NCBI RefSeq assembly: GCF_003953935.1
Contig: NZ_RXLQ01000003.1
Coordinates: forward strand, 248,001 to 312,000
Direction: 5' to 3'
Length of the DNA: 64,000 nucleotides
Source: Massilia atriviolacea
GTDB taxonomy: Bacteria; Pseudomonadota; Gammaproteobacteria; Burkholderiales; Burkholderiaceae_D
In this document: in pieces, positions 12,114 through 62,580 of the stretch
Layout of the letters: every line of letters starts with the position of its first letter
Position numbering within the stretch: position 1 is the first letter of the stretch
The notes under the pieces: model-generated
What the model saw: only the letters and a program-made list of their open reading frames with translations
The model's database searches: none
What the model was told of the DNA's origin: nothing
Program-made: the position numbers and the translations under genes

Positions 12114-12207
12114 GGAGATGTGGCCGAGTGGCCGAAGGCACTTCCCTGCTAAGGAAGCATACGGGCTTAAACCTGTATCGTGAGTTCGAATCTCACCATC
12201 TCCGCCA
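12114..12207 (+). tRNA. tRNA-Ser (anticodon GCT), copy 2
   Basis: This is identical to copy 1 over the whole 94 nt, including encoded CCA and the GCT anticodon. It lies 290 bases downstream as a tandem duplicate. Confidence 0.96.
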
Positions 12208-41173: not shown

Positions 41174-41174
41174 C

Positions 41175-41720
41175 TCACTTCTCCAACTTCCAGTTCAGTT
41201 TCATTATCACCCGCTTAAGACTGCCCATGGCGCCCAGAACCTCGATGATGTTTTCGTCAGCGACGGACAGTTCGATATCTTGCTTGGGTGAGCAAAACCA
41301 TCGATCGGCATCAGTGTTTGGGCGAAATTGAAAACGGTTGCCTGTGGGGGAGGGCGAGGTATCCATATAACCAAGATCAAGAATGGCCTTTCTTAGATCT
41401 GGTACTAGCAGGCGGGCTGAGCCCCGAGATATGGCAATTGTAATTTTTCCTGGCAATTGCTCATGGAGTGCGCGTACGACGGTGATAGCGAAACAAAAAA
41501 AGATAAGCAATCTGACACGCAAGTCCACGGAATCAGGCAGCACCACGCTGCACATGAAGACGACGGCTGCCGTCAGTGCGAGCGTTATTATGGATTGTTT
41601 TACGGATAGAAAAGGCCATAGGTACCGCCCAAAGCTGTATGCGCGTTGTGTAGCAAAAAAGAAAAACGGAGGCGGAGTTACCGTTTCAATAGCTACAGGA
41701 TGATCAAGCGAAATCGACAT
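41175..41720 (-). CDS. two-helix membrane protein of the export operon (possible immunity protein)
   Basis: The product is 181 residues and I recognise no family. Two hydrophobic helices lie near residues 45-62 (ITLALTAAVVFMCSVVLP) and 68-85 (LRVRLLIFFCFAITVVRAL). The rest, about 95 residues, is predicted soluble (RGSARLLVPDLRKAILDLGY ... IIEVLGAMGSLKRVIMKLNW). A strong AAGGAG precedes ATG. It lies between the precursor and the exporter, and its TGA is one base from the exporter ATG. That position fits an immunity protein or accessory factor, which is inference only. Confidence 0.65.
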   Translation of the reverse strand: MSISLDHPVAIETVTPPPFFFFATQRAYSFGRYLWPFLSVKQSIITLALTAAVVFMCSVVLPDSVDLRVRLLIFFCFAITVVRALHEQLPGKITIAISRGSARLLVPDLRKAILDLGYMDTSPSPTGNRFQFRPNTDADRWFCSPKQDIELSVADENIIEVLGAMGSLKRVIMKLNWKLEK

Positions 41721-41792
41721 AAACTACTCCTTACATGACGTACTCCTTATATGCAGCCGCAATTATTTCTTGCGGCTGCACGGATTCTCGGA

Positions 41793-42461
41793 TCAGGCCA
41801 CCATCTGCATCACGGCACCACCTGCAGGGCCTGTGAAGGATGTATTGTCGTCGTCAGGCGCCATTGCGCGGGGCATGTGCCGTACGCCATCCTTATCTAT
41901 AAAGGTCTTATTGTCGTTCTTGGGATGATCGCGCTCCATCAGTACAAGGCTACCGTAAGCCGCGCCTACGCCAATCGCAATCCCGGCGATCTTCAGCGGC
42001 CCTGGGAGCTTCGCCGCCAGGCCCGAATTTTGGAGTGCCTTGGTAAGCGCTGCCTCAGCGAATGTGGACACTTCAGAGTAGACAACTCCGGAGAGAAGAC
42101 CGTCGAGCGCCATATGCTGTACGGAGATTGCCGGGTCGGCGTATATCCCGATAAGGCTCCCTTCCCATGCCGCAGGCTCCTGGCCGACCGACACGTTTGG
42201 AGGTGCGTTTTCAAACACCGGTATCGCGCCGTTGATCTTGACGACAGCCGGTTGCCCGCCTTCTACACCAACGGCGGCGAGATCGTATGCATGTCCGCCG
42301 ATACCCCCGAATCCGCCACCACTTCCGCCGCCATCTCCACCGGAACCACCGCCACCGGAACCGGAACCACCTCCGCCTTCTCCCGGAAGCGCTTCCCCGG
42401 GTGTTATTTCTGCCTTTCCTCCAACGAGTTGGGCCAATAGTTCCTTGTCTAGCACTCTCAT
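41793..42461 (-). CDS. glycine-rich precursor with double-glycine leader (bacteriocin-like)
   Basis: The product is 222 residues. The start is the ATG at 42461, because GGAG lies six bases upstream. The N-terminus MRVLDKELLAQLVGG is a short double-glycine leader: Leu at -12, Leu at -7, Leu at -4 and GG at -2/-1 relative to the cut. The mature part begins KAEITPGE and carries a Gly/Ser run (residues ~26-48). A globular-looking stretch follows, with a hydrophobic helix near 165-185 (KIAGIAIGVGAAYGSLVLM), then a charged segment and a Gly-rich end. It is larger than typical class II bacteriocins (30-100 residues). It is the expected cargo of the adjacent C39 exporter. Confidence 0.75.
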   Translation of the reverse strand: MRVLDKELLAQLVGGKAEITPGEALPGEGGGGSGSGGGGSGGDGGGSGGGFGGIGGHAYDLAAVGVEGGQPAVVKINGAIPVFENAPPNVSVGQEPAAWEGSLIGIYADPAISVQHMALDGLLSGVVYSEVSTFAEAALTKALQNSGLAAKLPGPLKIAGIAIGVGAAYGSLVLMERDHPKNDNKTFIDKDGVRHMPRAMAPDDDNTSFTGPAGGAVMQMVA

Positions 42462-42557
42462 GACGTTCTCCATTCGATTGATGTGACCATGCTCCACGCG
42501 CGCATGGCAGGTTCGGCGTTGTTGAAAAAACGCGGCGCCAATGAAGTTCAATGTCCT

Positions 42558-43835
42558 CTAATTCTGTGAACCTGTGCTCGGAGGAACACGGTCCCTTGCT
42601 ACGCTGACGACAGGGTCCACGATCCACTCGATCAGCTTCCGGCGATCGTGAAAAACGTCGGCTTCCAGCGTCATTCCTGGCTCAAATGGCCTACGCTTGC
42701 CATACATCATCATGGAGTTGGTCGACATCGCTACGGTCGCCCGATACATCGGGATATCAGGAACGTTGGGAGTGTCCGGCGCCTTTGCACCGTCATTGAT
42801 GGGATTGAGTTCGACCTGCTTGACCGTGCCGGGCACCAAGCCGTACTTCTGATACGGGAAAGCGTCAATGCGCAGTTGGACCTGTTGCCCCACCACCACC
42901 GACGATTTCGCTTGCGAGGGAATCAGCAGCTTTGCCTCAAGCACGCTACCCATTGGAAGGATAGTGGCGAGCACTGTTCCGGCCGGCACCGACTGCCCTA
43001 CGTCATAGCCCAGCGCAGTAACGGTGCCGGCAGCCGGTGCCGTTACCCGCACTGTACTGCGTCCTTCGTGCTCCGCTGCCTCTTGTTCTAATGCTGCAAG
43101 ACTCTGTTCTGCCTCGGAAACGGCAATTTTTTCGCGCGCGGCGAGTGACGCTTTTTCGTTCTGCACTTGAAGCAATGACGCGCGTGCGTTACCCAGGTTG
43201 ACCGTCAGCGCATTGCGCCTGGCGCGCTCGACATTCAGGATGTTCGTATGCTGCGCCAGCGTGGCCACAGACACAAAGCCCTGATGGGCAAGCGTGCTGT
43301 TTCGGTCGACGGAGGTTTGCGCGCTTTTGACCAGTTCGTTCCCGATGGCGATTCCGCCAAGATGCGCGGCGATCTCGGCCTTCACCAGGCGCTCCTGATC
43401 GGCCAGGGCAGCGGCGCGAAGGGCCAATTGCTGGAGCATCGCGTCGCGTCGTTGTGCGGTCTGTTCGCGTCGCATGGCGAGCGAAGCGGTAATGCGTGCA
43501 TCGATCGAGCCGGTCCCGCCAATCCGCTCGGCGGACAGGTCGAAGAGCGTCTGCCCCGCCTCGACCGTCGCACTCTCGCTGACACGGCGCGCGACGATAC
43601 GGCCAAATTGCGGGGCGACTGCCTTGATGGCGCCGCCGGCATAGACCAGTTGGCCTTTCACTTTGACCTTGCTACTGTATTCGGCAAAAAACAGTAACAG
43701 CGCAAGAACGAGCACGATCGCACTACCGCAGGCCGCTGCTACCTTCATTTGCACAGGGCGGGCCAATATGATGGCGCCGCCTTTGCGGCTGCGGCGAGCC
43801 TCGATAACTTCAATACGTATCGGCGCGATATTCAT
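42558..43835 (-). CDS. HlyD-family membrane-fusion/secretion adaptor
   Basis: The product is 425 residues and is the first gene of the operon. One N-terminal membrane helix (~residues 38-54, IVLVLALLLFF) precedes a beta-barrel/lipoyl half-motif (GQLVYAGGAIKAVAPQFGRI). A long alpha-helical coiled hairpin with repeated heptads follows (AEIAAHLGG ... LAALEQEAAEHEG), then the second lipoyl half (VTAPAAGTVTALGYDVGQSV). It resembles CvaA/HlyD-type adaptors that link a C39 ABC exporter to TolC. AGGGAGGTCGGG fixes ATG at 43835. Confidence 0.9.
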   Translation of the reverse strand: MNIAPIRIEVIEARRSRKGGAIILARPVQMKVAAACGSAIVLVLALLLFFAEYSSKVKVKGQLVYAGGAIKAVAPQFGRIVARRVSESATVEAGQTLFDLSAERIGGTGSIDARITASLAMRREQTAQRRDAMLQQLALRAAALADQERLVKAEIAAHLGGIAIGNELVKSAQTSVDRNSTLAHQGFVSVATLAQHTNILNVERARRNALTVNLGNARASLLQVQNEKASLAAREKIAVSEAEQSLAALEQEAAEHEGRSTVRVTAPAAGTVTALGYDVGQSVPAGTVLATILPMGSVLEAKLLIPSQAKSSVVVGQQVQLRIDAFPYQKYGLVPGTVKQVELNPINDGAKAPDTPNVPDIPMYRATVAMSTNSMMMYGKRRPFEPGMTLEADVFHDRRKLIEWIVDPVVSVARDRVPPSTGSQN

Positions 43836-43865
43836 CCCGACCTCCCTGTCACCGGCACTGAGCAA

Positions 43866-47699: not shown

Positions 47700-50600
47700 A
47701 TGAAGCCAATCATGCATAAAAGCGCCTTACCAGTGTTCAAGTCCCGATCGTCGAAGGCTTTTGCCTGCCTGCTGCGGGTAGCCGCCGTTGCCGTGCTCGG
47801 CCTGCCTTTGCAGGCCGCCGCGGTCGATATGCTGGTATCGCGCCTGACCGACACGCCGGATCCGGCCGTGCGCGGCGGCACGATCCTGTATTCGGCATCG
47901 GTGACCAACAACACCAGCGACATCGCCAAGGATGTCAAGGTGGTGTTCACGCTCGATGCGGGCACCACCTTCGTCTCGGTCAGCGATCCGGCCTGCGTGT
48001 ACGATGCCGGCAGCAACAAGGTGACCTGCAGCTACGCCACGGTGGCGGGCGACGGCGCCGGCGCGGGAACCGCCGACGTCAAGGAGATCGACCTGGTGGT
48101 GCGCAACCTGGCCAGCGCCGGCCAGACGGTCAGCCTGGGCGCGGTCGTGAGCACCAGCGATCCGGACAGCAACGCGGGCAACAATTCGCTGTCGCAGCTG
48201 ACCACCATCGACAACGGCGCCGACCTGTCGCTGGTGCTGACCGGCTCGCCGTCGAGCCTGATGGCCAGCGGCAGCCTGGTGTACACGGCCACCCTCAACA
48301 ACAACGGTCCCGACAACGCCGGCGCCACCAGGGCCACCATCACCCTGAGCCCGAACCTGAGCTACCAGACCGCGACCGGTTCCGGCTGGTCGTGCGGGGC
48401 GGCAGGGCAGGTGGTGACCTGTAACCGTGCCAGCGCGCCGACGGGCGCGCTGCCGGTCATTACTATCAACACCAGGGCGACCGGCACCACCACCGGCACC
48501 ATTACCAGCACCGGCGTGGTGACGGTCAGCGGCGGCGCGACCGACTTCAACAACGCCAACGACGCGTCGTCGGCGAACACCACGATCACCGTCGGCACCG
48601 ACCTTGCGCTCACCAAGACCGTGTCGCAAGCCCTGGTGGGCGGCGGCCAGCCGGTCAGCTTCACCCTGGCGCCGCGCAACCTGGGCCCGATGACGGCCAA
48701 CAACGTGACGGTCAGCGACACCGTGCCCGCCGGCTTTGCCATTACCGGCGCGGCCGGCACCGGCTGGACCTGCACCATCAACGGCCAGGCCGTCAGCTGC
48801 ACCCGCCCGAGCTATACCGTCGGCGCCGCGCAGGACATCGTCATCAGCACCACCGCACCGAGCGTGCAGGCGCAGACCAACGCCACCAACACCGCCGCCA
48901 TCGGCAGCGACACGCCCGATGGCGACACCGGCAACAACAGCGGCTCGGTGAACGTGAGCATCGTGCCGGACGGCGTCGACCTGTCGGTCACCAAGACCAA
49001 GACCCCGAATCCGGTGGCGCAGGGCGCGAACATGGTCAGCACCATGCGCGTGACCAATCACGGCCCCGGCGCGGCCCTGGCCGGTGAAGTGAAGATCGTC
49101 GAAACCTTGCCTGTCGGCGAAACCTTCGTTAGCGCCAGCGGCGCCAACTGGACCTGCGCGCCGCAAGCCGGACAGGACATCACCTGTACCTACGCCCTGC
49201 CGCTGGCGCTCAATGCCCAGACCTCGAACCTGGTCCTGACCACCACCGCCACCGACGCCGGCACCCTGACCAATACCGCTTGCGCGGCCTACCTCGACAA
49301 CGGCGGCCTGAAGGTCGACCCGATCGCGGCGAATAACTGCGTCAGCGCGACGTCGCAATCGACCCAGACCCCCAACGCCGCCGACCTGCAACTGAGCAAG
49401 GCAGCGGCCCCGGGCACCCTGGACTGGAATGCGCCGACCATCACCTACACCCTGACCGTGACCAATGCCGGCCCGGGCGTATCGACCAACGCGGTGCTGT
49501 CCGACCCGATTCCCGGCTTCATTCCCGGCAAGACCGTGGTCACGGCAGCGCAGACCGGCGGCACCAGCGCGGTGACGTTTACCTGCACCACCGGCGCCGT
49601 CGTCACCTGCTTCACCAGCGGCGGCACCATGGCCGTCGGCACCACGGCGATCATCACCGTCAGCGTCACCCGTCCGCTGCTCGACAGCAGCGGCCAGCCG
49701 GGCAACAAATGGGTGAATTCGGCCAGCGTGCGTTCCAACGCGCAAGGCGACCCGGTTCCCGCGAATAACGTCGCCTCTGCCGATGTGCAGGTCGATCCGG
49801 TCTCCGACCTGACCGTCGTCAACACTGTGACCCCTGGCTCGGTACCGGCCGGCACCAATGCCACCTATGTGCTGACGATCAATAACAATGGCCCGTCGAC
49901 CGCCAACGGCGTGACCGTCACCGACGTGTTCACGATTCCCGAAGGCACGATGAGCGTGCTGTCGATCACCGCCAGCAACGGCGGCGTGTGCCAGCCTTAC
50001 GATCCGGCCACGCGCACCATCAGCTGCGCGATGGGCGCCATGGCGTCCGGCGCGACCCGCACCATCACGGTCGTGACCCGTCCCGACTACATGGACAACC
50101 AGCCGACGCCGCGCACCATCGGCAGCACCGCCACGGTCGCCACCACCAGCAACGAGAGCGACCTGGGCAACAACAGTTCGTCGAACAACCTGAGCGTCAC
50201 CCCGGCCACGCTCGACCTGCTGGTCAACAATACCGACAACGTCGATCCGATGGGCTTCGTGCCGGCCGGCGCCGGTCCGGTGTTCCCGGACAACGTGGTC
50301 ACCTACCGCAACACCATCACCAATCGCGGTCCGTCGGTCGCCACCCACCTCAAGCTGAGCTACGTCATGAAGCCGCCTGCAGGCAAGAGCATGACCTTCC
50401 TCGGCGGCAAACTGCTGCCTGACGGCGCCGCGTACACCAATTACTGCGACCAGGCCAACAGCCAAGTCACCGGGCCGGCGCAGATGACGGTCACCTGTCA
50501 TTTCCCGACCAATGAGATCCTGGAAGGCAACAACGCGAACCGCGACCTGTACCTCGACTTCCGCGTCGACACCCAGCCGACCGGTTCGGGCGATGCCTAC

Positions 50601-53600
50601 CAGTCGACGGTGACGGTGTCCTCGCGCGAGCCGGAAGCGCTCACGCCGAACAACTCGGCCGACCAGAGCACCACCATCAAGATGCGCGTCGACCTGAAGA
50701 TGAGCAAGGCGGCCTTCGCCTGGAACGGCACCAGCAACGCCGGCGCCACGGCGGTGCAGTTGCGCCAGCCATTCTTCTGGGTACTGACCCTGAACAACGC
50801 CGGTCCCGGCAACAGTAACGGCACCGTGATCAACGACGTGCTGCCGGCCGGCCTGACGGTCTACACCGGCGGCGCGGCTGCGCCGTACAACGCGGCGCCG
50901 TATAACGCCGGGATTACCTGGAGCACCAACAACGCGGCCCCGAGCAACGGTAGCTGCGGCGCCGGCGCGACCATCAGCTGCGCCGTCGGCCTGCTGGAAG
51001 TGGGCAAGTCGGCCACCGTGCGCATTCCCGTGATCGCCACCGCCGCCAATCCGGCGCTGGAAAACTGCGGCACCGCCAGCACCACCGATGTCGAGCGCAC
51101 CGCGGTCGACAACCGCGGCTGCGCCACCATCGCGGTCCAGCCGTCCTCGATCGCCGGCTTCGTCTACGAAGACAATAACAACGACGCCGCCAAGGCGGCG
51201 GGCGAGACCGGCATCACCGGCGTCACCCTGCGCCTGGACGGTACCGATCTCTACGGCAATACCGTGAGCAATGTCACCACCGTGACCAGCGCCGGCGGCG
51301 CCTACGTCTTCAACAACCTGTCGCCGGGTACCTACAAGGTCACCGAAGTCCAGCCGGCCACCCACCTGGACGGCAAGGATGCCGCCGGCAGCGCCGCCGG
51401 CACTGCCAGCGACGCCACCGCCGACGAGATCGGCAACATCGTCCTGCCTGCCAGCACGGCCGCCACCGGCTACCTGTTCGGCGAACTGAAACCGGCCGCC
51501 TTGTCGGGCTACGTCTTCGTCGACCTCGACAAGGACGCCGTGCGCGACCTGACCGGCGTGCCTGCCACCGACGAGAGCGCGGGCGTGACCAGCGTCAGCA
51601 TGACCCTGTCCGGCAGCGACGACCTGGGCCCGGTGAACGCCACCGTCCAGACCGGCGTTAACGGTTCCTACAGTTTCGGCAATCTGCGTCCCGGCAGCTA
51701 CCAGGTCGTGCAGCAAACCCTGACCGGCGTGACCCACACCGGCATGACCGCCGGCAGCAAGGGCGGCAACGATGGCGCCGCCGTGCTGGCCCCGAATACC
51801 CCGGTACTCGGCCTGACCAAGCGCACCCTCGGCAATGTGGTGCTGGTGGCCGGCGACGCCGCCATCAACAACAACTTCGGCGAAACCGGCCAGGGCCTGG
51901 GCGGCGCCGTGTATGCCGACCTGAACAACAATGGCGTCAAGGATACGGGCGAGCCGGGCATTCCGGGCGTGCAGGTCACCCTGTCGGGCAACACCGCGAC
52001 CGGCGCCAGCGTGTGCGTCGAAATTTCGCCGAACCCGTGCACCATCGTCACCGACAGCAACGGCAGCTACAGCTTCACCGGCCTGCCGTCGAGCGACCCG
52101 GCCGGCTACGTGCTCACCGAGCAGAGCCAGGCCAGCGCGCCCCTGTCCAACTACGCCGACGGCATCGACGCTGTCGGTACCGTGAACGGCGTGGTCCGTG
52201 GCAGCATGACGAACGACAAGTTCAGCGGCATCGTCATCGGCACCGGCCAGTTCGGCAGCAACTACAACTTCGGCGAATCGACGGCCAGCCTGTCGGGCAA
52301 GGTCTATCTGGACGGCGACCGCAGCGGCACCCTGAACGCCGGCGACACGCCGTTGCCGAACGTGACGGTCACCCTGTCGGGCAGCACCGCCACCGGCGCC
52401 AATGTCTGCAGCGTCGTGAGCAATTGCGTCGGCCAGACCGATGCCAACGGTAACTACAGCTTCACCGGCCTGCCAGCCAGCAATGGCGCCGGCTACACCG
52501 TGACCGAAACCCAGCCGGTCGACTTCGTCGACGCCACCAACACGCTCGGCACCGGCGCCAGCGTGCCCGGCAACCTGGGCGTGGCGGGCACCAGTTCCTT
52601 CAACGGCGTGGTGCTGGGCGCGGGCCAGAAGGGCATCGATTACCTGTTCGGCGAAGCCACCGGCAAGCTGAGCGGCTTCGTGTATGCCGACAAGAACAAC
52701 AACGGCATCATGGATGCCGGCGAAAGCGGCATCGGCGGCGTCTCGCTGGCGCTGACCGGCACGGCGGCCAGCGGCGGCAGCGCCTGCGGCGCGCCGGCCT
52801 GCACGGCCACCACCAATCCGGACGGTTCGTACAGCTTCAGCTTCCTGCGCAACGCCAACGGCGCCGGCTATACCGTCACCGAAACCCAGCCGGCCGCCTA
52901 CCTCGACGGCATCACCCGCAAGGGCAACGTCGGCGGCGTGCCGTGCGCGGCCTGCGTCGACAATACGGCCAACGCGATCGGCACCATCGCCTACGTCGTG
53001 GACAAGACCCACAGCGACTTCAACTTCGGCGAACTGCTGCCGGCCAGCGTCAGCGGGTTTGTGTATGCGGACAGCAACCAGAACGCCGCGCTCGACAAGG
53101 ATGAGCAGATTCCCGGCGTGACCGTCACCCTGAGCGGCACCGACGACCGCGGCGCGGCCGTCAACCTGAGCACGACCAGCGCGGCCGACGGCAGCTACCG
53201 TTTCGACAAGCTGCGTCCGAGCAGCGGCGCCGGTTACACCGTGAGCGAAACCCATCCGGCCGGCTTCAACGATTTCCCTGGCAATACCGGCTCGCTGCCG
53301 GGCACCATCGGCGGTGTCGGCGCCGGCGTGGCCGTGCCGAACAGCATCGGCGGCCTGCAACTGGTGCAGGGCGACGCTGCCGTGAACTACAACTTCCGCG
53401 AAATCGGCGCCAGCATCGGCGGCGCCGTGTACTTCGACGCCAACAGCAACGGCCAGCGCGACAGCGGCGAAGCGCCATTCCCCGGCGTCACCGTGCGCCT
53501 GGCCGGCCCGACCCCGCGCACCGTGGTCACCGGCGCCGACGGCAGCTTCCTGTTCACCGGCCTGATGGCGGGTAACTACACCATCGTCGAAACCCAGCCG

Positions 53601-56600
53601 GGTGGCGTGACCGATGGTGCGGACACGGCCGGCTCGCTGGGCGGCACCATCAATGCGCCGAAGAACAGCATCGGCGGCATCAACCTGGCGCCAGGCGCGG
53701 CGGGCGCGAACTATCTGTTCGGCGAACGCAGCCTGCCGAGCGCGACCGGTTCGCTGGCCGGGACCGTGTATGTCGACGCCAACAAGGACGGCAAACGCGA
53801 CAGCGGCGAAGAACTGCTGGCCGGCGTCACCCTGACCCTGACCGGCGTGGACGCCAAAGGACAGCCGGTCACCCTGACCGCGCAGACCGACAGCAAGGGT
53901 AACTACCTGTTCCCGTTCCTGATTCCGGGCAGCTACAACCTGCTTGAAACCCAGCCGGAAAAACTGTCCGACTTCGAGGCCGCCAGCGGCACCAGGATCG
54001 GTACCCTGGGCGGCGGCGCACCTGGCTTGAATTCGGTCACCGCGATCGTGATTCCCGCCATGGGCGGGGCGGCCACCGGCTACGACTTCCGCGAGTTCAG
54101 CCCGAACGCGCAGGTGGCCGGTCCGGCCCAGCTCAGCGGTCACGTCTACGTCGACGGCAACAAGAATGCCAAGATGGAAGCGGGCGAAGCCCTGGCCGGC
54201 GTCACCGTCACCCTGACCGGTGTCGATGTCAACGGCGTGGCGATTCCCGCACGCACCACCCAGACCGGCGCCGACGGCAGCTATCTGTTCGACAAGCTCG
54301 TTCCTGGCACCTACACCGTGGTGGAAACCCAGCCGGCCGGCTATGGCGAATTCCCGACCAACACCGGCAGCGCTGTCGGCAGCGCGGGCGGCGTCCTCGA
54401 TGCCGGCCCGAACAAGATCACGAAAATCGTGCTGGCGCTGGGCAACAATGCGACCGACTACGATTTCCGCGAAGCGGGCGGCAGCCTGGCGGGCGTGGTC
54501 TACCGCGACGACAACCATAACGGCGTGCAGGACGCCGGCGAGCCGGGCATTGCCGGCGTGCCGCTCGGCGCCATCGGCGGCAAGGGCGAAGCAGGACGCG
54601 CCACCACCGGCGCCGATGGCCGCTTCCTGATCGTCGGCTTGCCTGCCGACACCTACAGCCTGGTGGAAACCCATCCGTCCGCCTACATCGACGGCAAGGA
54701 AAGCGCCGGCAAGATCGACGGCGCCGTGGTCGGCATTGTCGACAACAGCGGCTTCGATGCGACTGCGCCGAAGAACACCATCGGCGGCATCAAGCTGGGC
54801 GTGGCGCAGGACGGCGTGGACCACCTGTTCGGCGAACGCCGCGCGCGCCTGGAAGGCTATGTCTACGTGGACGCCAACCACAACGGCCAGATGGACGCGG
54901 GCGAGATCCCCTTGCCTGGCGTGCACGTCACCCTGACCGGGAATGGAACAAGCGGCGGCGACTGCGTGCAAGGTTGCGTGGCGCTCACCGGCGCCGACGG
55001 CAAGTATGTGTTCGAGAACCTGGTTCCCGGCCGCTACACCCTGGTCGAGTCGCAAACCGACCTGCCGACCTCGAAGTACATGGATGGCAAGGAAACCGCC
55101 GGCGTGGCGGGCGGGATCGTCGACAACAGCAGCTTCGGCACCGCGCCGTCGCAAAACACGATCGCGCAGATCGACGTCACCAGCGAGAAGCTGGCGGCCA
55201 ACAACGGCGTGATCGGCGGCAACCTGTTCGGCGAGCGCGTGCGTCCGGGTCCGGAAACCAGGGCGCCGATCATCAACGGCTATGTCTGGATGGACCGCGG
55301 CCACACCCGCACCCGTCCGAACGACCATGAAGGCGTGAAGGACTGGACCGTGACCCTGACCCAGAACGGCAAGCCGGTCTGCACCGTCAAGAGCGATGCG
55401 AATGGCTTCTACCAGTTCGACAGCCTGCGTTGCCCCGGCTATGAAGGCACGGGCCTGCCGACCGGTCCCGGCTTCGAGATCCGCTTCACCAAGGATGGCA
55501 ACGGCATGCCGAACGTTCCGACCTCGGCCGGTAACGCCGGCAAGCCGGACGCCGGCTTGATTCGCGACATCACCCTGACCGACAACAGCGACATCACCGA
55601 GCAGAACCTGCCGCTCAACCCATCGGGCGTGGTGTACGACAGCGTGACCCGTCAACCGGTACGCGGCGCGGTCGTGAGCGTCAGCGGTCCGGCCGGTTTC
55701 GACCCGGCGCGTCATCTGCTGGGCGGCCTGGCGGCAGTCAAGCAGACCACCGGCAGCGACGGCGTGTACCAGTTCTTCCTGCAAAACGGTGCGCCGGCCG
55801 GCACCTACAAGCTGGCGATCAGCAGCTATCCGACCGGCTACGTGCCGGCCGAATCGGCGCGGATTCCATCGTGCCAGGGTGCACTGCCGGTCGCGGCCAA
55901 CGCGAATGTGGCGCTGGTCCAGAAGTCGAACAGCGCCCCTGCAACGGCTGTCAACCTGCACAAACCGGGCGCCTGCGTCGGCCTGGTGCCGGGCGGGGCG
56001 GACACGACCCAGTACTACACCACCTTCACGGTGGGCCCGAACGGCGCGCCGGTGGTGAACAACCACCTGCCGATCGACAAGATCGAAGCGGCCGGCCTGG
56101 CGCTGACCAAGACCGGCGACAAGCAGCAGCTGGAATTCGGCGAAAGCCTGCTGTACACCCTGACCGTGCGCCAGACCAGCGGCAGCGCGGTGGCGCAGGC
56201 AACGGTGCGCGACAGCCTGCCGGCCGGCTTCGCGCTGGTGCCGGGCACGGTCAAGGTCGACGGCAAGCCGGTGGCCGATCCCGCGGTCACCAGCGGTCCG
56301 GTGCTGGCCTTTAACCTGGGGCCGCTGGCCAGCAACAAGCAGGCGGTATTGACCTACCGCCTGCGCGCCGGCGTCGGCAGCCTGCAGGGCGACGGCATCA
56401 ACCGCGCGATCGCCTATGCCTGCAACCAGGCCTCGGGTTGCGTCGCGCCGGGTTCGTACCAGCCGGTGCCGGATGCGTATCCGTCCAACCGCGCCGAGTA
56501 CAAGGTGCGCCTGACTGGTGGCGTGTTCACCGAACAGGCCTGCGTGGCCGGCAAGGTATTCGTCGACTGCAACGGCAACTCGGTGCAGGACAGCGAAGAG

Positions 56601-57056
56601 CTGGGCATTCCGGGCGTGCGCCTGTATATGGAAGACGGCACCTCGTTCACCACCGATGTGGAAGGCAAGTACAGCTACTGCGGCCTGTCTCCGAAATCGC
56701 ACGTGATCAAGGCCGACAGCCTGACCCTGCCGCGTGGCAGCCGCTTGACGACGACCAGCAACCGCAACCTGGGCGACGCCAACAGCATCTGGCTGGACGC
56801 CAAGAATGGCGAGCTGCTGCGCGCCGACTTCGCCGAAGGTTCGTGCTCGGCGCCGGTCGTCGAGCAGTTGAAAGCGCGCCGCAGCCAGGGTGGCACGCGT
56901 GCTCCGGAAACGGAAGCGGCGCGCCTGCCGGGCCTGAAGTTCGACAGTAAAGCTCCTGCCGCGCCGCGGCAGGCGACCGACAGCGCCAACCAGGAACTGG
57001 TCAAGCCACGCCAGGGAGCAATCCCTGCCGGCGCGGGAGAAGCCCGTGCGCAATAA
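47700..57056 (+). CDS. giant secreted DUF11 / SdrD-B (CnaB-type) repeat protein
   Basis: The product is about 3,118 residues (3,114 from the second ATG at 47712). A signal peptide is visible (AFACLLRVAAVAVLGLPLQAAA). Eight DUF11-type domains follow (~residues 45-1140; each opens like DLxLxKTxxP and contains YTLTxxNxGP). About twelve SdrD-B/CnaB-like modules come next (to ~2640), each with a calcium-loop type DxNxNGxxDxGE and a GSYxFxxLxPGxY strand pair. A carboxypeptidase-regulatory-like module, one more DUF11 and a last cysteine-containing SdrD-B module end the protein. There is no LPXTG, membrane anchor or obvious passenger cleavage site. The next two genes encode an outer-membrane barrel and an OmpA protein, suggesting display through them. 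Function is probably adhesion or scaffold (inference). Confidence 0.85.
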   Translation: MKPIMHKSALPVFKSRSSKAFACLLRVAAVAVLGLPLQAAAVDMLVSRLTDTPDPAVRGGTILYSASVTNNTSDIAKDVKVVFTLDAGTTFVSVSDPACVYDAGSNKVTCSYATVAGDGAGAGTADVKEIDLVVRNLASAGQTVSLGAVVSTSDPDSNAGNNSLSQLTTIDNGADLSLVLTGSPSSLMASGSLVYTATLNNNGPDNAGATRATITLSPNLSYQTATGSGWSCGAAGQVVTCNRASAPTGALPVITINTRATGTTTGTITSTGVVTVSGGATDFNNANDASSANTTITVGTDLALTKTVSQALVGGGQPVSFTLAPRNLGPMTANNVTVSDTVPAGFAITGAAGTGWTCTINGQAVSCTRPSYTVGAAQDIVISTTAPSVQAQTNATNTAAIGSDTPDGDTGNNSGSVNVSIVPDGVDLSVTKTKTPNPVAQGANMVSTMRVTNHGPGAALAGEVKIVETLPVGETFVSASGANWTCAPQAGQDITCTYALPLALNAQTSNLVLTTTATDAGTLTNTACAAYLDNGGLKVDPIAANNCVSATSQSTQTPNAADLQLSKAAAPGTLDWNAPTITYTLTVTNAGPGVSTNAVLSDPIPGFIPGKTVVTAAQTGGTSAVTFTCTTGAVVTCFTSGGTMAVGTTAIITVSVTRPLLDSSGQPGNKWVNSASVRSNAQGDPVPANNVASADVQVDPVSDLTVVNTVTPGSVPAGTNATYVLTINNNGPSTANGVTVTDVFTIPEGTMSVLSITASNGGVCQPYDPATRTISCAMGAMASGATRTITVVTRPDYMDNQPTPRTIGSTATVATTSNESDLGNNSSSNNLSVTPATLDLLVNNTDNVDPMGFVPAGAGPVFPDNVVTYRNTITNRGPSVATHLKLSYVMKPPAGKSMTFLGGKLLPDGAAYTNYCDQANSQVTGPAQMTVTCHFPTNEILEGNNANRDLYLDFRVDTQPTGSGDAYQSTVTVSSREPEALTPNNSADQSTTIKMRVDLKMSKAAFAWNGTSNAGATAVQLRQPFFWVLTLNNAGPGNSNGTVINDVLPAGLTVYTGGAAAPYNAAPYNAGITWSTNNAAPSNGSCGAGATISCAVGLLEVGKSATVRIPVIATAANPALENCGTASTTDVERTAVDNRGCATIAVQPSSIAGFVYEDNNNDAAKAAGETGITGVTLRLDGTDLYGNTVSNVTTVTSAGGAYVFNNLSPGTYKVTEVQPATHLDGKDAAGSAAGTASDATADEIGNIVLPASTAATGYLFGELKPAALSGYVFVDLDKDAVRDLTGVPATDESAGVTSVSMTLSGSDDLGPVNATVQTGVNGSYSFGNLRPGSYQVVQQTLTGVTHTGMTAGSKGGNDGAAVLAPNTPVLGLTKRTLGNVVLVAGDAAINNNFGETGQGLGGAVYADLNNNGVKDTGEPGIPGVQVTLSGNTATGASVCVEISPNPCTIVTDSNGSYSFTGLPSSDPAGYVLTEQSQASAPLSNYADGIDAVGTVNGVVRGSMTNDKFSGIVIGTGQFGSNYNFGESTASLSGKVYLDGDRSGTLNAGDTPLPNVTVTLSGSTATGANVCSVVSNCVGQTDANGNYSFTGLPASNGAGYTVTETQPVDFVDATNTLGTGASVPGNLGVAGTSSFNGVVLGAGQKGIDYLFGEATGKLSGFVYADKNNNGIMDAGESGIGGVSLALTGTAASGGSACGAPACTATTNPDGSYSFSFLRNANGAGYTVTETQPAAYLDGITRKGNVGGVPCAACVDNTANAIGTIAYVVDKTHSDFNFGELLPASVSGFVYADSNQNAALDKDEQIPGVTVTLSGTDDRGAAVNLSTTSAADGSYRFDKLRPSSGAGYTVSETHPAGFNDFPGNTGSLPGTIGGVGAGVAVPNSIGGLQLVQGDAAVNYNFREIGASIGGAVYFDANSNGQRDSGEAPFPGVTVRLAGPTPRTVVTGADGSFLFTGLMAGNYTIVETQPGGVTDGADTAGSLGGTINAPKNSIGGINLAPGAAGANYLFGERSLPSATGSLAGTVYVDANKDGKRDSGEELLAGVTLTLTGVDAKGQPVTLTAQTDSKGNYLFPFLIPGSYNLLETQPEKLSDFEAASGTRIGTLGGGAPGLNSVTAIVIPAMGGAATGYDFREFSPNAQVAGPAQLSGHVYVDGNKNAKMEAGEALAGVTVTLTGVDVNGVAIPARTTQTGADGSYLFDKLVPGTYTVVETQPAGYGEFPTNTGSAVGSAGGVLDAGPNKITKIVLALGNNATDYDFREAGGSLAGVVYRDDNHNGVQDAGEPGIAGVPLGAIGGKGEAGRATTGADGRFLIVGLPADTYSLVETHPSAYIDGKESAGKIDGAVVGIVDNSGFDATAPKNTIGGIKLGVAQDGVDHLFGERRARLEGYVYVDANHNGQMDAGEIPLPGVHVTLTGNGTSGGDCVQGCVALTGADGKYVFENLVPGRYTLVESQTDLPTSKYMDGKETAGVAGGIVDNSSFGTAPSQNTIAQIDVTSEKLAANNGVIGGNLFGERVRPGPETRAPIINGYVWMDRGHTRTRPNDHEGVKDWTVTLTQNGKPVCTVKSDANGFYQFDSLRCPGYEGTGLPTGPGFEIRFTKDGNGMPNVPTSAGNAGKPDAGLIRDITLTDNSDITEQNLPLNPSGVVYDSVTRQPVRGAVVSVSGPAGFDPARHLLGGLAAVKQTTGSDGVYQFFLQNGAPAGTYKLAISSYPTGYVPAESARIPSCQGALPVAANANVALVQKSNSAPATAVNLHKPGACVGLVPGGADTTQYYTTFTVGPNGAPVVNNHLPIDKIEAAGLALTKTGDKQQLEFGESLLYTLTVRQTSGSAVAQATVRDSLPAGFALVPGTVKVDGKPVADPAVTSGPVLAFNLGPLASNKQAVLTYRLRAGVGSLQGDGINRAIAYACNQASGCVAPGSYQPVPDAYPSNRAEYKVRLTGGVFTEQACVAGKVFVDCNGNSVQDSEELGIPGVRLYMEDGTSFTTDVEGKYSYCGLSPKSHVIKADSLTLPRGSRLTTTSNRNLGDANSIWLDAKNGELLRADFAEGSCSAPVVEQLKARRSQGGTRAPETEAARLPGLKFDSKAPAAPRQATDSANQELVKPRQGAIPAGAGEARAQ

Positions 57057-57078
57057 GCAACCATCCCGCCTGGCACAG

Positions 57079-60000
57079 ATGAACATCATGACGAACAAAA
57101 AACTTCTTCTTATTCAACGCCGCGGCACCGGTCGCCTGCTGGCGGGCGCGCTGGCGGTGGCCTGCGCTTTCCCGAACGCCGGCGCGCAAGTACTGCCGTC
57201 GTCTCCGCTTGACGCCGGCCTGCGCGCCCAGATGGCGGCGCCGCAACTCTGGGGCGGGCGTCTCGACGCCAGCGCCAGGGTGGCGCGCATCCTGGTCGAA
57301 ACCGACCGCGACGGCGTGCCGGCCGACGGCCAGTCGAAGGTAGCAGTGAGCGTGCAGGTGCTGGGCGAGGATGGCCAGCCGCTCAAGGAAGACGTGCTGC
57401 TGACCCTGGAAGCCTCGGCCGGCCGCATCCTGCTCGACGGCGCCGCCACCGACGCCCTCGGTCCGCAGAACGGCGACGCCAACAAGGTTACGCCCGGCAT
57501 GCAGCTGCGCGTGAAGGGCGGCAAGGCGCAATTCCGCCTGCTGGCCCCGGCGGCCGCCCAGGAAGTCCTGCTGCGCGTCGACGGCGGCAAGATCAGCACC
57601 CAGGGCGTGATCACCTTTGTTCCGGAACTGCGCCAGATGCTGGCCGTGGGCCTGATCGAAGGCGTGATCGCCAAGCGCAACCTGGAAGCGGGGGACCTGG
57701 CGCCGGCGCGCTTTAACGACGGCTTCGAGCAGGACATCACGCGCTGGAGCCGCCAGTTCAACAGCGGCAAGGCGAATGCCAGCGCGCGTTCCGCCTTCTT
57801 CGTCAAAGGCACCATCCTCGGCAGCAAGCTGTTGACGGCCGCCTACGATTCGGACCAGCAGACCAAGGAAAAGCTGCAGCGCGACATCAACCCGAACGAG
57901 TTCTACCCGGTCTACGGCGACAGCGCCAGCACCGCCTTCGACGCCCGTTCGGCCGGCCGCCTGTACGTGCGCGTCGACGACAAGAAGAGCTACGTGCTGT
58001 ACGGCGACTTTTCCACCAGCGACGGCACCATGTCCTCGGTGCCCGGTCCGAACGTGGGCCTGGAAGCGCGCAAGCTCGGCCAGTACCAGCGCACCGCCAC
58101 CGGCCTGCGCGGCAGCTGGGACGCCTCGCGCGGCAAGCTGGGCGGCTTCGCCTTCCACGACAATGCCAAGCAGGTGATCGAGGAATACCGCGCCAACGGC
58201 AGCTCTGGTCCCTTCGCCGTGCGCAACAACGGCGCGCTGACCAACTCCGAGCGCGTCGAACTGATCGTGCGCGACAAGAACCAGACCGACCTGGTCAAGC
58301 AAGTAACGCCCATGCGCCGCCTGGAAGACTACAGCTTCGAGCCGTTCTCGGGCCGCATCCTGTTCAAGCAGGCCGTGCCATCGCTAACGCCCGAAGGCGA
58401 CCCGCAATCGATCCGCGTGACCTACGAGGTGGAGCAGGGCGGCGACGACTTCTGGGTGATGGGCATCGACGGCGAATACCGCCTGAACGACAGCATCAGC
58501 GTCGGCATGGCCTCGGTCGAGGACAAGAATCCGCAGTCGCCGTACCGCCTGCACAGCGTGAATGCGAGCGTGAAGCTGGCGCCGTCGACCAGTTTCGTGG
58601 CCGAATTCGCGCAGAGCGAATCGACCACCTACAGCGCCAACGGCCAGGTGTTTACGACGCCGAGCGGGCAGGCTGGCGAGTTGTCGAGTTCGGCAACCGG
58701 CCAGGCTGCGCGCCTGGCCCTGTCGCACAAGGGCGAGACGGTCGAGGCGCGCGCCTACTGGCAGCGCGCCGACGACGAGTTCAACAATACAGCGGCCGGC
58801 ATCAGCCCCGGCCACAGCGACGCCGGCGTGAACGTCAGCGCCAGATTCACGTCGACCACCACGGCGTATGCCAGCGCCTTGCAGAGCAAGGACCAGCAGG
58901 TGGTGGCCCAGCGCGATGCGGTGCGCGTCGGCATGCTGTGGAAGGCCGATCCGCGCCTGACGCTGGACTTCTCGCTGCAGCACATGAAGGAAGAAGGCGA
59001 GCTGCGCAACCAGGTCGGCATGGCCAGCAATACCGGCGTGGTCTCGAACGCGAACGGCCTGAACCCGAGCGGCGGCTTCTTCGGCTTCGGCAACACCAAC
59101 AGCGCGATCAGCCCGGTCAACGGCGGCGCCATCACCACCTTCGCCCCGGTCGGCGCGACCACCGCGCCGGGCACGCGCGGCACGCTGGACGCGAATACGG
59201 TCGCCATCGGCGCCCAGTACAAGGCCACCGACCTGCTGAGCCTGACCGCCGTGGTCGAACATGGCGTGTCCGACAGCAATCAGAAGCGCTACGAGCTCGG
59301 TGCGCAGTATCAATTGTCCGAACGCAGCCGTGCGTATGCGCGCTACGAAAACCAGACCGGCCTGGCATCGCGCTACGCGCTCAATCCGGCCGAGAAGAGC
59401 AATGCCTTCGTGGCCGGGGTCGAATCGACCTACCTGCCGGGCGCCAGCATCTTCTCGGAATACCGCCTGCGCGATGCGCTCGACAGCGGGCTGGCCGACG
59501 GGCGCGACCTGCAACTGGCCAGCGGCGCGCGCAACACCTGGAACGTGTCCGAAGGCCTGGCGCTCTCCACCAACGCCGAATACCTGCACGTGTTCGACGG
59601 CCGCCAGCAAAAAGGCGTGGCCCTGGCCACGGCGCTCGACTACACCGCCAACCCGCTGTGGAAAGCCTCGGCCAAGCTCGAATGGCGGCGCCTGTTCGAC
59701 AGCCCTGGCGAGATCGGCAACCAGGCGCAGGACCAGTGGTTGAATACCCTGTCCTTCGTGCGCAAGCTCGACCGCGACTGGACCGTGCTGGCCCGCAACT
59801 ATGCCCTCCTGTCGCGCAACAACGACGACATCAGCGGCAAGCCGCTGGCCAACAGTCTGCAGGAACGCGCGCAGCTCGGCTTTGCCTGGCGTCCGGTGGA
59901 CCACAACCAGTTCAACGGACTGGCGCGCTACGAGTACAAGAACGTGCGCGACGGCGCCCGCGCCGATGGCGACAATTACGCCGCCCACATCGTCTCGACG

Positions 60001-60411
60001 CACCTGGACTACCATCCGAGCCGTCCCTGGTGGAGCACCGGCCGCCTGGCCGCCAAGAGCAGCCGCGAGCGCAACCTGCCGCTCGGGCAGCAGAAGTACA
60101 GCGCGTGGATGGCGTCCGGCAGGGTGGTGTACGACATCACCGAAAACTGGGACATCGGCGTGCTCGCCGCCTACCTGCACAGCCCGCAGAACAAGGGCAG
60201 CAGCCAGTATGCGCGCGGGGTCGAAGTCGGCTACCTGGTCAGGCAGAACCTGTGGCTGTCGGCCGGTTACAACGTCAGCGGCTTCCGCGAACGCGACCTG
60301 AGCGCGGCGGACTACACCTCCAAGGGATGGTTCGTGCGCCTGCGCTTCAAGTTTGACGAGAATGTATTCAAAGGCAAGGACCCAGAAGTCAACCGCACGC
60401 TGGCCCGCTAA
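57079..60411 (+). CDS. large outer-membrane beta-barrel protein with Ig-like N-domain
   Basis: The product is 1,110 residues. A signal peptide ends near PNAGAQV. Residues ~45-185 form an Ig/invasin-like domain (ARILVETDRDGVPADGQSKVAVSVQVLGE; DGGKISTQGVITFVP). The remainder is a long series of alternating aromatic/polar strands (SVGMASVEDKNPQSPYRLHS ... LSAGYNVSGFRERDLSAADY), ending GWFVRLRFKFDENVFKG, as in outer-membrane barrels. No TonB box or plug domain is obvious. A GTG at 57046 inside the giant gene and ATGs at 57079 and 57088 are possible starts. The tight spacing (22 bases after the stop) puts it in one operon with the giant protein, so it may anchor or export it. Confidence 0.75.
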   Translation: MNIMTNKKLLLIQRRGTGRLLAGALAVACAFPNAGAQVLPSSPLDAGLRAQMAAPQLWGGRLDASARVARILVETDRDGVPADGQSKVAVSVQVLGEDGQPLKEDVLLTLEASAGRILLDGAATDALGPQNGDANKVTPGMQLRVKGGKAQFRLLAPAAAQEVLLRVDGGKISTQGVITFVPELRQMLAVGLIEGVIAKRNLEAGDLAPARFNDGFEQDITRWSRQFNSGKANASARSAFFVKGTILGSKLLTAAYDSDQQTKEKLQRDINPNEFYPVYGDSASTAFDARSAGRLYVRVDDKKSYVLYGDFSTSDGTMSSVPGPNVGLEARKLGQYQRTATGLRGSWDASRGKLGGFAFHDNAKQVIEEYRANGSSGPFAVRNNGALTNSERVELIVRDKNQTDLVKQVTPMRRLEDYSFEPFSGRILFKQAVPSLTPEGDPQSIRVTYEVEQGGDDFWVMGIDGEYRLNDSISVGMASVEDKNPQSPYRLHSVNASVKLAPSTSFVAEFAQSESTTYSANGQVFTTPSGQAGELSSSATGQAARLALSHKGETVEARAYWQRADDEFNNTAAGISPGHSDAGVNVSARFTSTTTAYASALQSKDQQVVAQRDAVRVGMLWKADPRLTLDFSLQHMKEEGELRNQVGMASNTGVVSNANGLNPSGGFFGFGNTNSAISPVNGGAITTFAPVGATTAPGTRGTLDANTVAIGAQYKATDLLSLTAVVEHGVSDSNQKRYELGAQYQLSERSRAYARYENQTGLASRYALNPAEKSNAFVAGVESTYLPGASIFSEYRLRDALDSGLADGRDLQLASGARNTWNVSEGLALSTNAEYLHVFDGRQQKGVALATALDYTANPLWKASAKLEWRRLFDSPGEIGNQAQDQWLNTLSFVRKLDRDWTVLARNYALLSRNNDDISGKPLANSLQERAQLGFAWRPVDHNQFNGLARYEYKNVRDGARADGDNYAAHIVSTHLDYHPSRPWWSTGRLAAKSSRERNLPLGQQKYSAWMASGRVVYDITENWDIGVLAAYLHSPQNKGSSQYARGVEVGYLVRQNLWLSAGYNVSGFRERDLSAADYTSKGWFVRLRFKFDENVFKGKDPEVNRTLAR

Positions 60412-60420
60412 TTTCCTGAC

Positions 60421-61464
60421 ATGAGAATGACGATGAAACCAACCATTATTTCCCGCCCGCGCAGCGTGCTGTTTGCCGTGATGGCCCTGGCCGTGCAAGG
60501 CGCGTTTGCGCAAACGCTCGCCGCGCCGGCGCAGCGCATCTCCGACCAGGCGATCGTGGCCGACCAGGCCGGCTACAGGGCCTTGCAGCAGCGCGTCAAG
60601 GCGCTCAACGACAAGGGCGTGCCGGTCAACAATTACTACCTGTCGAAGGCGCAATGCTGGCTCGACGTCTCGCTGCACGAATACACGCGCAACGACCGTT
60701 CGGCCTTCCCGCAGCAGGCGCTGGAGCAGGGCGCCGCGATCGTCGGCGCGCTGGAGTCGGGCGCCACGCCCAATCCGGGCGAGCAGACGCCGCTGGTGAA
60801 CGACGCGGCCAAGCTGCGCGAAGACCTGTGGGCGCGCTTCGGCGCCGTCAAGGGCGGTGCGGGCTTTGCCTGCGCGGCGCAGAAGGTCGCTTGCGGCGAG
60901 GTCGAACTGGTGCATGCCGGGAACGAATTCAATCAGCAGGGCTGGCGCCATGCGAATCCCTACATCCAGATCGCCGAAGACCAGTTGCAGGCGGCGCAAG
61001 CCTCGGCGGCGGCCTGCGGCGGCGCGCCGGTCAAGGTGGCGGCGACGCCGGTGCCGGGTACGGCGCCGGTGGTGTCGGTCGAGAAGCTGACCCTGGCGGC
61101 CGATGCGCTGTTCAGGTTCGACAGATCGGGCCTGGCGGACCTGTTGCCGGCCGGCCGTGCGCGCATCGACAGCATGCTGATCAAGCTCGACGGTGTGTAT
61201 GCGCAGATCTCGGGCATCAAGCTGACCGGTTACACCGACCGCCTGGGGACGGAAGCGTACAACCAGCCGCTGTCGGAAAAGCGCGCGGCCACGGTGCGCG
61301 AATATATCCTGAGCAAAGGTTTTGCGGGCGAGATCGCCAGCGCCGGCAAGGGCGAAGCGGACCAGGTCGAAGCGTGCACGGGTGTCGCGCCGCGCGCCGC
61401 CCTGATCGGCTGCCTGCAACCGAACCGCCGGGTCGAAGTGGAAGTGACCGGGATCAAGCGTTAA
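60421..61464 (+). CDS. OmpA-family protein of the giant-protein operon
   Basis: The product is up to 347 residues, with a signal peptide (SVLFAVMALAVQGAFAQ). The middle has a helical repeat-like region with several Cys (KAQCWLDVSLHEY, GFACAAQKVACGEVELV). The C-terminal ~120 residues are an OmpA peptidoglycan-binding domain: VEKLTLAADALFRFDRSGL, LTGYTDRLGTEAYNQPLSEKRA and NRRVEVEVTG. It lies 9 bases after the barrel gene. It may tether the barrel-giant complex to the cell wall. ATGs at 60421, 60427 and 60433 are alternative starts. Confidence 0.8.
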   Translation: MRMTMKPTIISRPRSVLFAVMALAVQGAFAQTLAAPAQRISDQAIVADQAGYRALQQRVKALNDKGVPVNNYYLSKAQCWLDVSLHEYTRNDRSAFPQQALEQGAAIVGALESGATPNPGEQTPLVNDAAKLREDLWARFGAVKGGAGFACAAQKVACGEVELVHAGNEFNQQGWRHANPYIQIAEDQLQAAQASAAACGGAPVKVAATPVPGTAPVVSVEKLTLAADALFRFDRSGLADLLPAGRARIDSMLIKLDGVYAQISGIKLTGYTDRLGTEAYNQPLSEKRAATVREYILSKGFAGEIASAGKGEADQVEACTGVAPRAALIGCLQPNRRVEVEVTGIKR

Positions 61465-61687: not shown

Positions 61688-62401
61688 TTAGCCGCGCTTG
61701 CGGCGGGCGCTGACACCGAGGATGGACAGGCCGGCCAGCAGCATGGCCCAGGTGCCGGGTTCGGGAACGGGCGTGACGGTGACGTCGGTCAGCGACGTGA
61801 CCACGCCGCTGAGCATGATGCGGTTACCGTCAGCACGATAGAAGTAGTGGTAGACGCTCGCACTCGTCACATCGGCAAGAGAAAGCTGTTGCGGTAAAGT
61901 TCCGTCAGAAATCCATGTCGATGATGCGTTACTGAAACCGATTCCGAAGGACACGTCATATCCCCCACTGTCGATACTCAAGGAATCCCGCGAGTTTGGC
62001 GTGCCAACCTTGCCGTCGGCAAGCGTCACTCGGCGCGTCAATGCGTCTCGATCTCCCGCACTGACTGTCTGCCCACTCGGCAAGATTTTGAACGTAAAGA
62101 AATCCGTCGGTGAGGCATACGCACCGTGGTAAAAATAGTCGGTGGAGGCTGGGTCGTAGGGCGGGTTATCCAGACTCCCACGCTCCATCCTGGCGCTGCT
62201 GTCGTAGGAAAAACGTCCGACAATGCGGTCGTTCATCGAAATCAGACTTCCAGCCTGCACACCCACGGTGCTTTGTTCGAACGACAGCTTGTTAACGTTC
62301 CCGATCTGACTGACCGCGGCCGTGAACTCATAGGTGCGCATCTCCGCCTTTGCCGGGACGGTTAGCGCGAGTGCGGAGAGCGCCGTTACGATGTATTTCA
62401 T
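61688..62401 (-). CDS. PEP-CTERM sorting domain protein
   Basis: The product is 237 residues. A signal peptide (IVTALSALALTVPAKAE) leads, and the C-terminus is VPEPGTWAMLLAGLSILG followed by VSARRKRG: the VPEP motif, a hydrophobic helix and an arginine-rich end. The mature part is beta-rich with no recognised fold (RTYEFTAAVSQIGNVNK; SLISMNDRIVGRFSYDSSAR). The start at 62401 gives the signal peptide directly; the frame upstream is out of a normal signal context. It is divergent from the S9 peptidase. No exosortase gene is in the window. Confidence 0.8.
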   Translation of the reverse strand: MKYIVTALSALALTVPAKAEMRTYEFTAAVSQIGNVNKLSFEQSTVGVQAGSLISMNDRIVGRFSYDSSARMERGSLDNPPYDPASTDYFYHGAYASPTDFFTFKILPSGQTVSAGDRDALTRRVTLADGKVGTPNSRDSLSIDSGGYDVSFGIGFSNASSTWISDGTLPQQLSLADVTSASVYHYFYRADGNRIMLSGVVTSLTDVTVTPVPEPGTWAMLLAGLSILGVSARRKRG

Positions 62402-62424
62402 GCAATTCCAATAGTCAATTAATA

Positions 62425-62456
62425 TTGCATTATATTGCATTGCATTTATGCAATCA
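62425..62456. repeat. TTGCAT-rich direct repeats in the divergent gap
   Basis: ATTGCAT occurs three times in close order, and ATTGCAT/ATGCAAT makes an inverted pair, in AT-rich DNA upstream of the PEP-CTERM gene. It could be part of the promoter or a regulator site. Confidence 0.35.
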
Positions 62457-62580
62457 ATACATGCCTGATCCGCATGTATCAAAAGCGCCATCTTTCGGCT
62501 GCTCTTGCGATACGAACTTGGTATGATGCCGGGGCCTTTGTGTATCTATTGGCACTTTCATGACTCTTGGGGACATTGCA

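Follow-up and report, generated by a model that had tools for sequence, protein, structure and literature searches.

We propose that three adjacent genes of Massilia atriviolacea encode a single outer-membrane display and anchoring complex, in which a giant fibre protein would be docked on, and probably through, a very large outer-membrane barrel, with an OmpA-domain protein acting as a clamp; we put the probability of this reading at about one half. The genes lie in a stretch of 64,000 nucleotides (nt) that was analysed at its full length (the window: NZ_RXLQ01000003.1, 248,001–312,000; positions at this locus are relative to it). The trio had been predicted in a preliminary description of this DNA, and the open reading frames of giant, barrel and OmpA-domain protein were all confirmed, on the forward strand.

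Recurrence and fusion of the gene trio

A scan of contigs (genome_contigs) returned 548 barrel-related stretches, the best-scoring 80 of which were kept (the 80 loci; some genera are over-represented among them). A DUF11-type giant adjoins the barrel or is fused to it in 78 of these 80 loci, and the remaining two (L051 and L093) stop at a contig edge. The C-terminal module of the giant (C-module) is found upstream of the barrel in 73 loci, and an OmpA partner lies next to the barrel in 69; five others, in which no OmpA gene was seen, end at most about 620 nt from the barrel (L062, L064, L069, L071 and L088). All three genes are present in the standard order in 63 of the 80 loci, which cover 20 genera and five families with names (of the 63, 14 carry no genus name, 11 no family name, and L101, L103, L112 and L115 have broken frames). 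Variant arrangements are the order barrel, OmpA, giant, with the giant downstream (L113 and L119), a frame-broken giant upstream (L118), and a DUF11 protein after the barrel (L054). The closest barrels are from Massilia, with 92–97% identity; Janthinobacterium, Candidatus Glomeribacter, Variovorax, Sphaerotilus, Leptothrix, Stenotrophomonas, Xanthomonas, Lysobacter, Pseudoxanthomonas and others are also among the best 80. In a second, hand-picked sample of more distant relatives, consisting of 20 places in genomes of a phylum survey and four of 24 plasmid records with the barrel, a DUF11/SdrD-type protein is fused to or directly beside the barrel in all 24 loci. The trio is thus linked in other genomes, and the lack of linkage that the preliminary description had named as grounds for giving up its proposal was not encountered.

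The barrel is present in 18 of 60 genomes (that of M. atriviolacea included); in wider samples it was found in 41 of 300 genomes from the order and 55 of 398 from the phylum. The 15 plasmid records listed out of the 24 include two from cyanobacteria, for one of which the flanking sequence was retrieved. Within the set of 60 genomes, which partly shares genomes with the 80 loci and is not independent of them, the C-terminal 106 residues of the giant are encoded by 16 of the 18 genomes that have a barrel and by none of the 42 that lack it (both, barrel only, tail only, neither: 16/2/0/42; Fisher test, 1e-12). The N-terminal domain of the OmpA-domain protein occurs in 14 genomes, 13 of which have the barrel (13/5/1/41 in the same order; 2e-8). 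Neither value is corrected for kinship. The recurrence and co-occurrence of the barrel and the giant's C-terminus exceed chance.

Natural fusions join the partners in various ways. The giant's C-module is followed by the barrel in one chain of 1,614–2,353 residues in L021, L022, L026 and L028, giant and barrel form a single open frame of 3,747 residues in L079, and fused C-module and barrel were seen in 18 of the 61 rows of a barrel tree. The OmpA domain stands N-terminal to the barrel in L031, L032 and L122 and at the C-terminus of the giant in L133–L135; L128 and L141 carry it within a single chain, after the C-module and ahead of the barrel. Four changes between the split and the fused state were counted on a tree of 59 rows (omitting L124, which has a long branch, and L024, which is identical to L116), three of them forced by supported branches; a simpler tree model with 61 rows also gave four. 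This repeated fission and fusion of the same partners suggests that they act as one complex. Moreover, since an OmpA-type domain can reach its peptidoglycan ligand only in the periplasm, the stretch ahead of the barrel would be periplasmic as well. Apart from L079, 14 of the 17 fused loci carry a separate DUF11-type open reading frame on the fetched stretch (none was found in L126, L136 and L141); in L026, L125, L127 and L142 separate DUF11 genes stand beside the C-module–barrel chain, as if this chain were a platform serving further fibre subunits. In L115 (2903–6757) the barrel contains an in-frame stop, and the same frame continues from the barrel into the OmpA domain.

The giant and barrel genes of the window had been described as 22 nt apart, which presumes a barrel start at ATG 57079. 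A start at GTG 57046 is likelier, because several relatives begin at the homologous codon ('MRN..'); the sequence GGGAG ends 6 nt ahead of it, and the gene then overlaps the giant's stop by 11 nt. Of the 73 giant/barrel pairs examined (the window's pair included), 70 have an in-frame start for the barrel that precedes the last base of the giant's stop codon, mostly at −4 or −11, so that the two genes are probably translated in a coupled manner. The spacing of 9 nt between the barrel and OmpA genes stands as described. Upstream of the giant's ATG 47700, a GTG at 47661 is likewise open in frame.

Conservation differs along the giant. Mean identity to the window in six congeners is 82% for the giant's repeats, 91% for the C-module, 96% for the tail and 94.5% for the barrel. 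In a 44-row alignment of the C-module, the last SdrD_B domain and the tail are rich in invariant residues, and four Cys (alignment columns 401, 410, 447 and 502) are kept in 43, 44, 43 and 44 rows, respectively. The repeats being more variable and the C-module and tail highly conserved, a variable fibre appears to terminate in a fixed connector.

Some genomes hold more than one pair. A second giant–barrel pair of M. atriviolacea itself (L033, contig C35, 483–10953) has a barrel 52% identical to that of the window, and its sequence stops 482 nt beyond this barrel. Similar second pairs occur in G002 (L037) and G016 (L034), with no OmpA gene found on the fetched stretch. In a congener (G006; L030, 7473–13084) C-module and barrel are present in many broken frames, for which decay and poor assembly are indistinguishable in a genome that is 48% complete.

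Domains of the three proteins

The giant matches the Pfam families SdrD_B (E 1.6e-143, 13 stretches) and DUF11 (E 2.1e-96, nine stretches), arranged as given in Table 1. Its C-module is the portion that is joined to the barrel in the fusions of other species. The giant had been thought to lack an anchor of its own; this holds in so far as its Pfam matches include no OmpA domain or sorting tail, but a conserved C-terminal module and tail are present. Past the signal region there are 40 Cys residues, most of them in close pairs, which suggests disulfides in the giant's domains. Folding and oxidation of these domains in the periplasm would follow, and unfolded threading through a narrow pore is disfavoured by the same pairs. 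With a pattern of our own, candidates for both the Lys and the Asp of the Lys-Asp-Asn isopeptide triad of CLIPPER adhesins were found in three of the nine DUF11-type domains (K319/D353, K1016/D1059 and K2817/D2851).

Table 1. Features of the giant–barrel–OmpA locus (window positions; residue numbers of the domains of the giant count from GTG 47661)
Feature	Position	Strand	Remarks
Giant fibre protein	47700..57056	+	3,118 residues from ATG 47700; Sec signal peptide by eye
DUF11 (CLIPPER-type) array	47817..51149	+	residues 53–1163; many close Cys pairs
SdrD_B-type array	51147..55340	+	residues ~1163–2560; repeated motifs that we take to be Ca-loop-like
Conserved C-terminal module	55341..56837	+	residues 2561–3059; prealbumin-like, DUF11 and Cys-containing SdrD_B
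Conserved C-terminal tail	56838..57053	+	residues 3060–3131 (end of tail); Cys3062 is Cys in 44/44 rows
Barrel protein	57046..60411	+	1,121 residues from GTG 57046; 1,110 from ATG 57079
Big_1/invasin-like Ig domain	57286..57621	+	barrel residues 81–192
Outer-membrane barrel (predicted)	57640..60354	+	residues 199–1103; 39 model strands of at least 8 residues, some possibly outside the wall
OmpA-C protein	60421..61464	+	347 residues; signal peptide by eye; Cys-containing N-domain
N-domain of OmpA-C protein	60514..61035	+	residues 32–205

By our own estimate the roughly 25 small domains of the giant would span about 90 nm if extended. A fibre of this length cannot stand upright in the periplasm and is probably outside, for which the large lumen of the barrel would be needed. 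The alternative that the trio is a periplasmic scaffold, tying the outer membrane to peptidoglycan with no display, agrees with the OmpA domains fused beside the giant's C-module and with Cys-paired domains, which fit the periplasm. We consider it improbable, as the extended length is several times that of a normal periplasm, the repeats vary more than the C-module, as in surface fibres, and DUF11 is described as a stalk domain of fibrillar adhesins (PMC12617251).

The barrel was modelled with AlphaFold2 (residues 46–1121, 56-row alignment), the best model having a mean predicted local distance difference test score (pLDDT) of 71.3 and a predicted template modelling score (pTM) of 0.69. One Ig domain (model residues 36–147) precedes the strands, in line with the Ig-like N-part of the preliminary description, and model residues 154–1058 contain 39 strands of at least 8 residues, 36 of them of at least 10. 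The barrel of the window is thereby predicted to be far larger than a usual porin; a beta-moment estimate of the strand number (40 peaks) was crude and was not used. In a fold comparison, rows that align small porins span model residues ~152–1058, which suits a closed barrel with its first and last strands as neighbours. In the model, the linker from the Ig domain to the first strand comprises about 6 residues, too few to cross the lumen comfortably, so that the most likely place of the Ig domain is the periplasmic mouth.

Family searches to E 1 were performed for 12 members, i.e. the window's barrel and 11 relatives; curated cut-offs were applied to the window's barrel and five distant proteins, and the other 11 members were judged by best E-value. 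The window's barrel matched no Pfam or NCBIfam family at cut-off, and the NCBIfam matches of the 12 barrels were noise (best E 0.0031). Pfam Big_1 was found on the Ig part of ten of the 12, together with weak generic barrel matches to OMP_b-brl (six members, best 1.2e-4), DUF2490 (two, best 3.7e-5) and Porin_4 (one, 1.9e-4). Such generic matches could be expected of an ordinary large porin or receptor sharing its operon with a fibre gene by chance, an explanation that is hardly credible in view of the repeated fusion, the reordering with partners kept together, the start/stop overlap and the co-occurrence of tail and barrel. A Protein Data Bank (PDB) search with the window's barrel sequence alone gave no relative to E 1; a barrel profile found invasin over the Ig part (E 0.0062) and three more entries at 0.095 or worse. 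In the fold comparison, some rows matched the Ig domain and others matched the barrel partially and loosely, with no full-length match among the 50 entries listed, which does not imply a novel fold. Public annotation of the listed distant relatives is inconsistent, ranging over TonB-dependent receptor, outer membrane protein transport protein, OmpA family, DUF11 and hypothetical protein.

The third protein has a C-terminal domain matching Pfam OmpA (E 1.4e-10; 41.8 bits, cut-off 27.2). Its residues D273 and R288, presumably the peptidoglycan-binding pair, are the conserved Asp and Arg of OmpA-C proteins and were found in 70 of 70 rows. In the N-domain, Cys79, Cys151, Cys158 and Cys199 are Cys in all rows that have a letter there. 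We infer that this protein clamps the complex to peptidoglycan.

Comparison with known systems

In agreement with the preliminary description, which had matched the trio to no secretion type that it could name, none of the secretion-barrel families considered below scored above noise in the 12 barrels searched, the window's own among them. For type Vb (two-partner) secretion, no POTRA or ShlB/FhaC-type match was found to E 1 in these 12 barrels (Pfam and NCBIfam). The same holds for the type Va family PF03797, and the barrel has 39 long strands in the model and is a separate chain here. Type Ve was represented by one IAT_beta match among the 12 members, covering 58 residues at 15.1 bits (cut-off 22.3), and the Ig domain stands before the barrel. 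No YadA_anchor match (type Vc) was found in the window's barrel. There was no Plug or TonB_dep_Rec match to E 1, yet among the 15 plasmid relatives listed two bear the annotation TonB-dependent receptor. No match to E 1 was found for DUF560 (type 11, Slam), and the family search found no Usher family barrel with a pilus chaperone. The SprA family gave no sequence match in the 12 barrels, and the fold comparison, which covers 50 listed entries, excludes nothing in this respect. In the available text of a paper on cargo of the type 11 secretion system, DUF11 (PF01345) appears solely as a domain co-occurring with DUF1194 (PMC12282271).

A split autotransporter related to type V was considered as well, in which the barrel exports the unfolded giant C-terminal end first and its own Ig domain ends up outside. 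The order of the fused forms, passenger followed by C-terminal barrel, is like that of type Va, the Ig domain is similar to the ones in invasin and intimin, and one distant relative (L133) comes near the YadA_anchor cut-off (21.4 versus 22.7 bits). Type Va and Ve barrels have 12 strands, however, about a third of the size predicted here. The short linker between Ig domain and first strand, the OmpA domains that separate the C-module from the barrel in L128 and L141, and the many Cys pairs of the giant also argue against this explanation, as does the IAT_beta match, which is limited to one member and lies under the cut-off (E 0.018). We regard it as unlikely.

The nearest published case found is B9T28_05395 from Acinetobacter silvestris, a fibrillar adhesin of the CLIPPER (DUF11) type that carries an OmpA-like domain for anchoring (PMC12617251; PDB 9IFR); the words 'barrel' and 'outer membrane' are absent from the main text of that paper. 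The structure 9IFR matches the DUF11 domain of the giant's C-module (E 3.7e-10). Both systems combine a stalk of tandem DUF11 domains (nine stretches in the giant) with an OmpA-type anchoring domain, but in the trio this domain belongs to a protein of its own and the partner is a very large barrel. Anchored fibrillar adhesins are thus already known, and the large dedicated partner barrel would be the element added here. A literature search, with most subscription journals and all preprints outside its reach, found no description of the giant/barrel pair.

The giant had also been called a counterpart of the staphylococcal Sdr (MSCRAMM) proteins. The SdrD_B repeats bear this out, with a match to NCBIfam SdrD (258.6 bits, cut-off 2500) and of the SdrD crystal structure 10PS to the C-module profile (2.2e-8); the likeness does not extend to a head, since no Sdr-type (MSCRAMM) head domain is among the giant's Pfam matches, nor to an LPXTG motif, of which none was seen by eye, and barrel and OmpA partners are added. 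Intimin and invasin (type Ve) likewise combine a Big_1/invasin-like Ig domain and a barrel in one chain, but in the present family the Ig domain is followed by a much larger barrel, and the fibre is a protein of its own. As with trimeric autotransporters and TpgA, an OmpA-C protein is a neighbour, and it matches NF047726 TpgA (4.5e-21; 75 bits, cut-off 350), whereas no YadA anchor match was found in the giant or the window's barrel. The SprA barrel of type IX secretion, with its 36 strands, is likewise a very large single chain; unlike in that system, neither an SprA family nor a type IX sorting-tail match was found in the giant or the window's barrel.

Proposed display complex and neighbouring genes

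In the display and anchoring complex that we propose, the giant would cross to the periplasm by the Sec pathway, and its small domains would fold there, many of them held by disulfides. The C-module and tail would then dock at the periplasmic face of the barrel, i.e. the Ig domain and the mouth, so that the long, more variable N-terminal fibre is held on the barrel and probably exits through it. The OmpA-domain protein would bind peptidoglycan and tether the complex, and the fibre may have an adhesive or structural role.

A more specific version, which we put forward tentatively, is that the trio represents a new system by which Pseudomonadota export and display proteins at the outer membrane, relatives of it occurring in cyanobacterial records as well. 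In such a system, a barrel of about 36–40 strands would pass folded, disulfide-bonded Ig-type domains with the N-terminus outward, the C-module and tail would serve as stopper and docking signal, and the OmpA-type protein as clamp. Giants with DUF11 and SdrD_B domains are widespread in Gram-negative genomes, and a dedicated barrel would anchor them and might also let them out. If folded domains do traverse the barrel, it would join the very few outer-membrane pores that pass folded protein. The conserved tail could be used as a sequence tag for finding the cargo proteins of the system.

Several observations weigh against the proposed complex. Nothing points to an energy source for export, and no known ligand-binding head was recognised among the giant's Pfam matches. 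The barrel model is of middling confidence (pLDDT 65.0–71.3 across five models), which makes the exact strand number unsure, and its low-confidence loops might plug the lumen. Six of the 80 loci (L052, L053, L054, L056, L060 and L108) have no OmpA gene on the fetched stretch despite room for one (L054 is cut by the contig end; L060 has 4.3 kb). Two barrel genomes, G040 and G059, both holding distant forms, are without the giant's tail, and these two together with G006, G033 and G056 are without the OmpA N-domain. Conversely, G055 has the OmpA N-domain, at a contig end, and no barrel. In G043 (L027 and L156) the barrel precedes the giant, and the OmpA partner is about 1 Mb away on the same contig.

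Finally, the giant might leave by another route, e.g. type I or type II secretion, with the barrel serving only to catch it from the outside, as a receptor or anchor. A candidate exporter is encoded in the window, by genes for an ATP-binding cassette exporter with a C39 peptidase and an HlyD-type protein (39047–43865, reverse strand). These genes do not adjoin the trio, C39 exporters usually handle small leader peptides, and the OmpA domains fused beside the C-module would place that end of the giant in the periplasm, so that we consider this route quite improbable.

Elsewhere in the window, a PEP-CTERM protein is encoded directly downstream of the trio (61688–62491, reverse strand), and a large protein with phosphoesterase and bacterial phospholipase C C-terminal domains at 35372–38065 (forward strand). 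Two tRNA-Ser (GCT) genes lie about 200 nt apart at 11824–11917 and 12114–12207.

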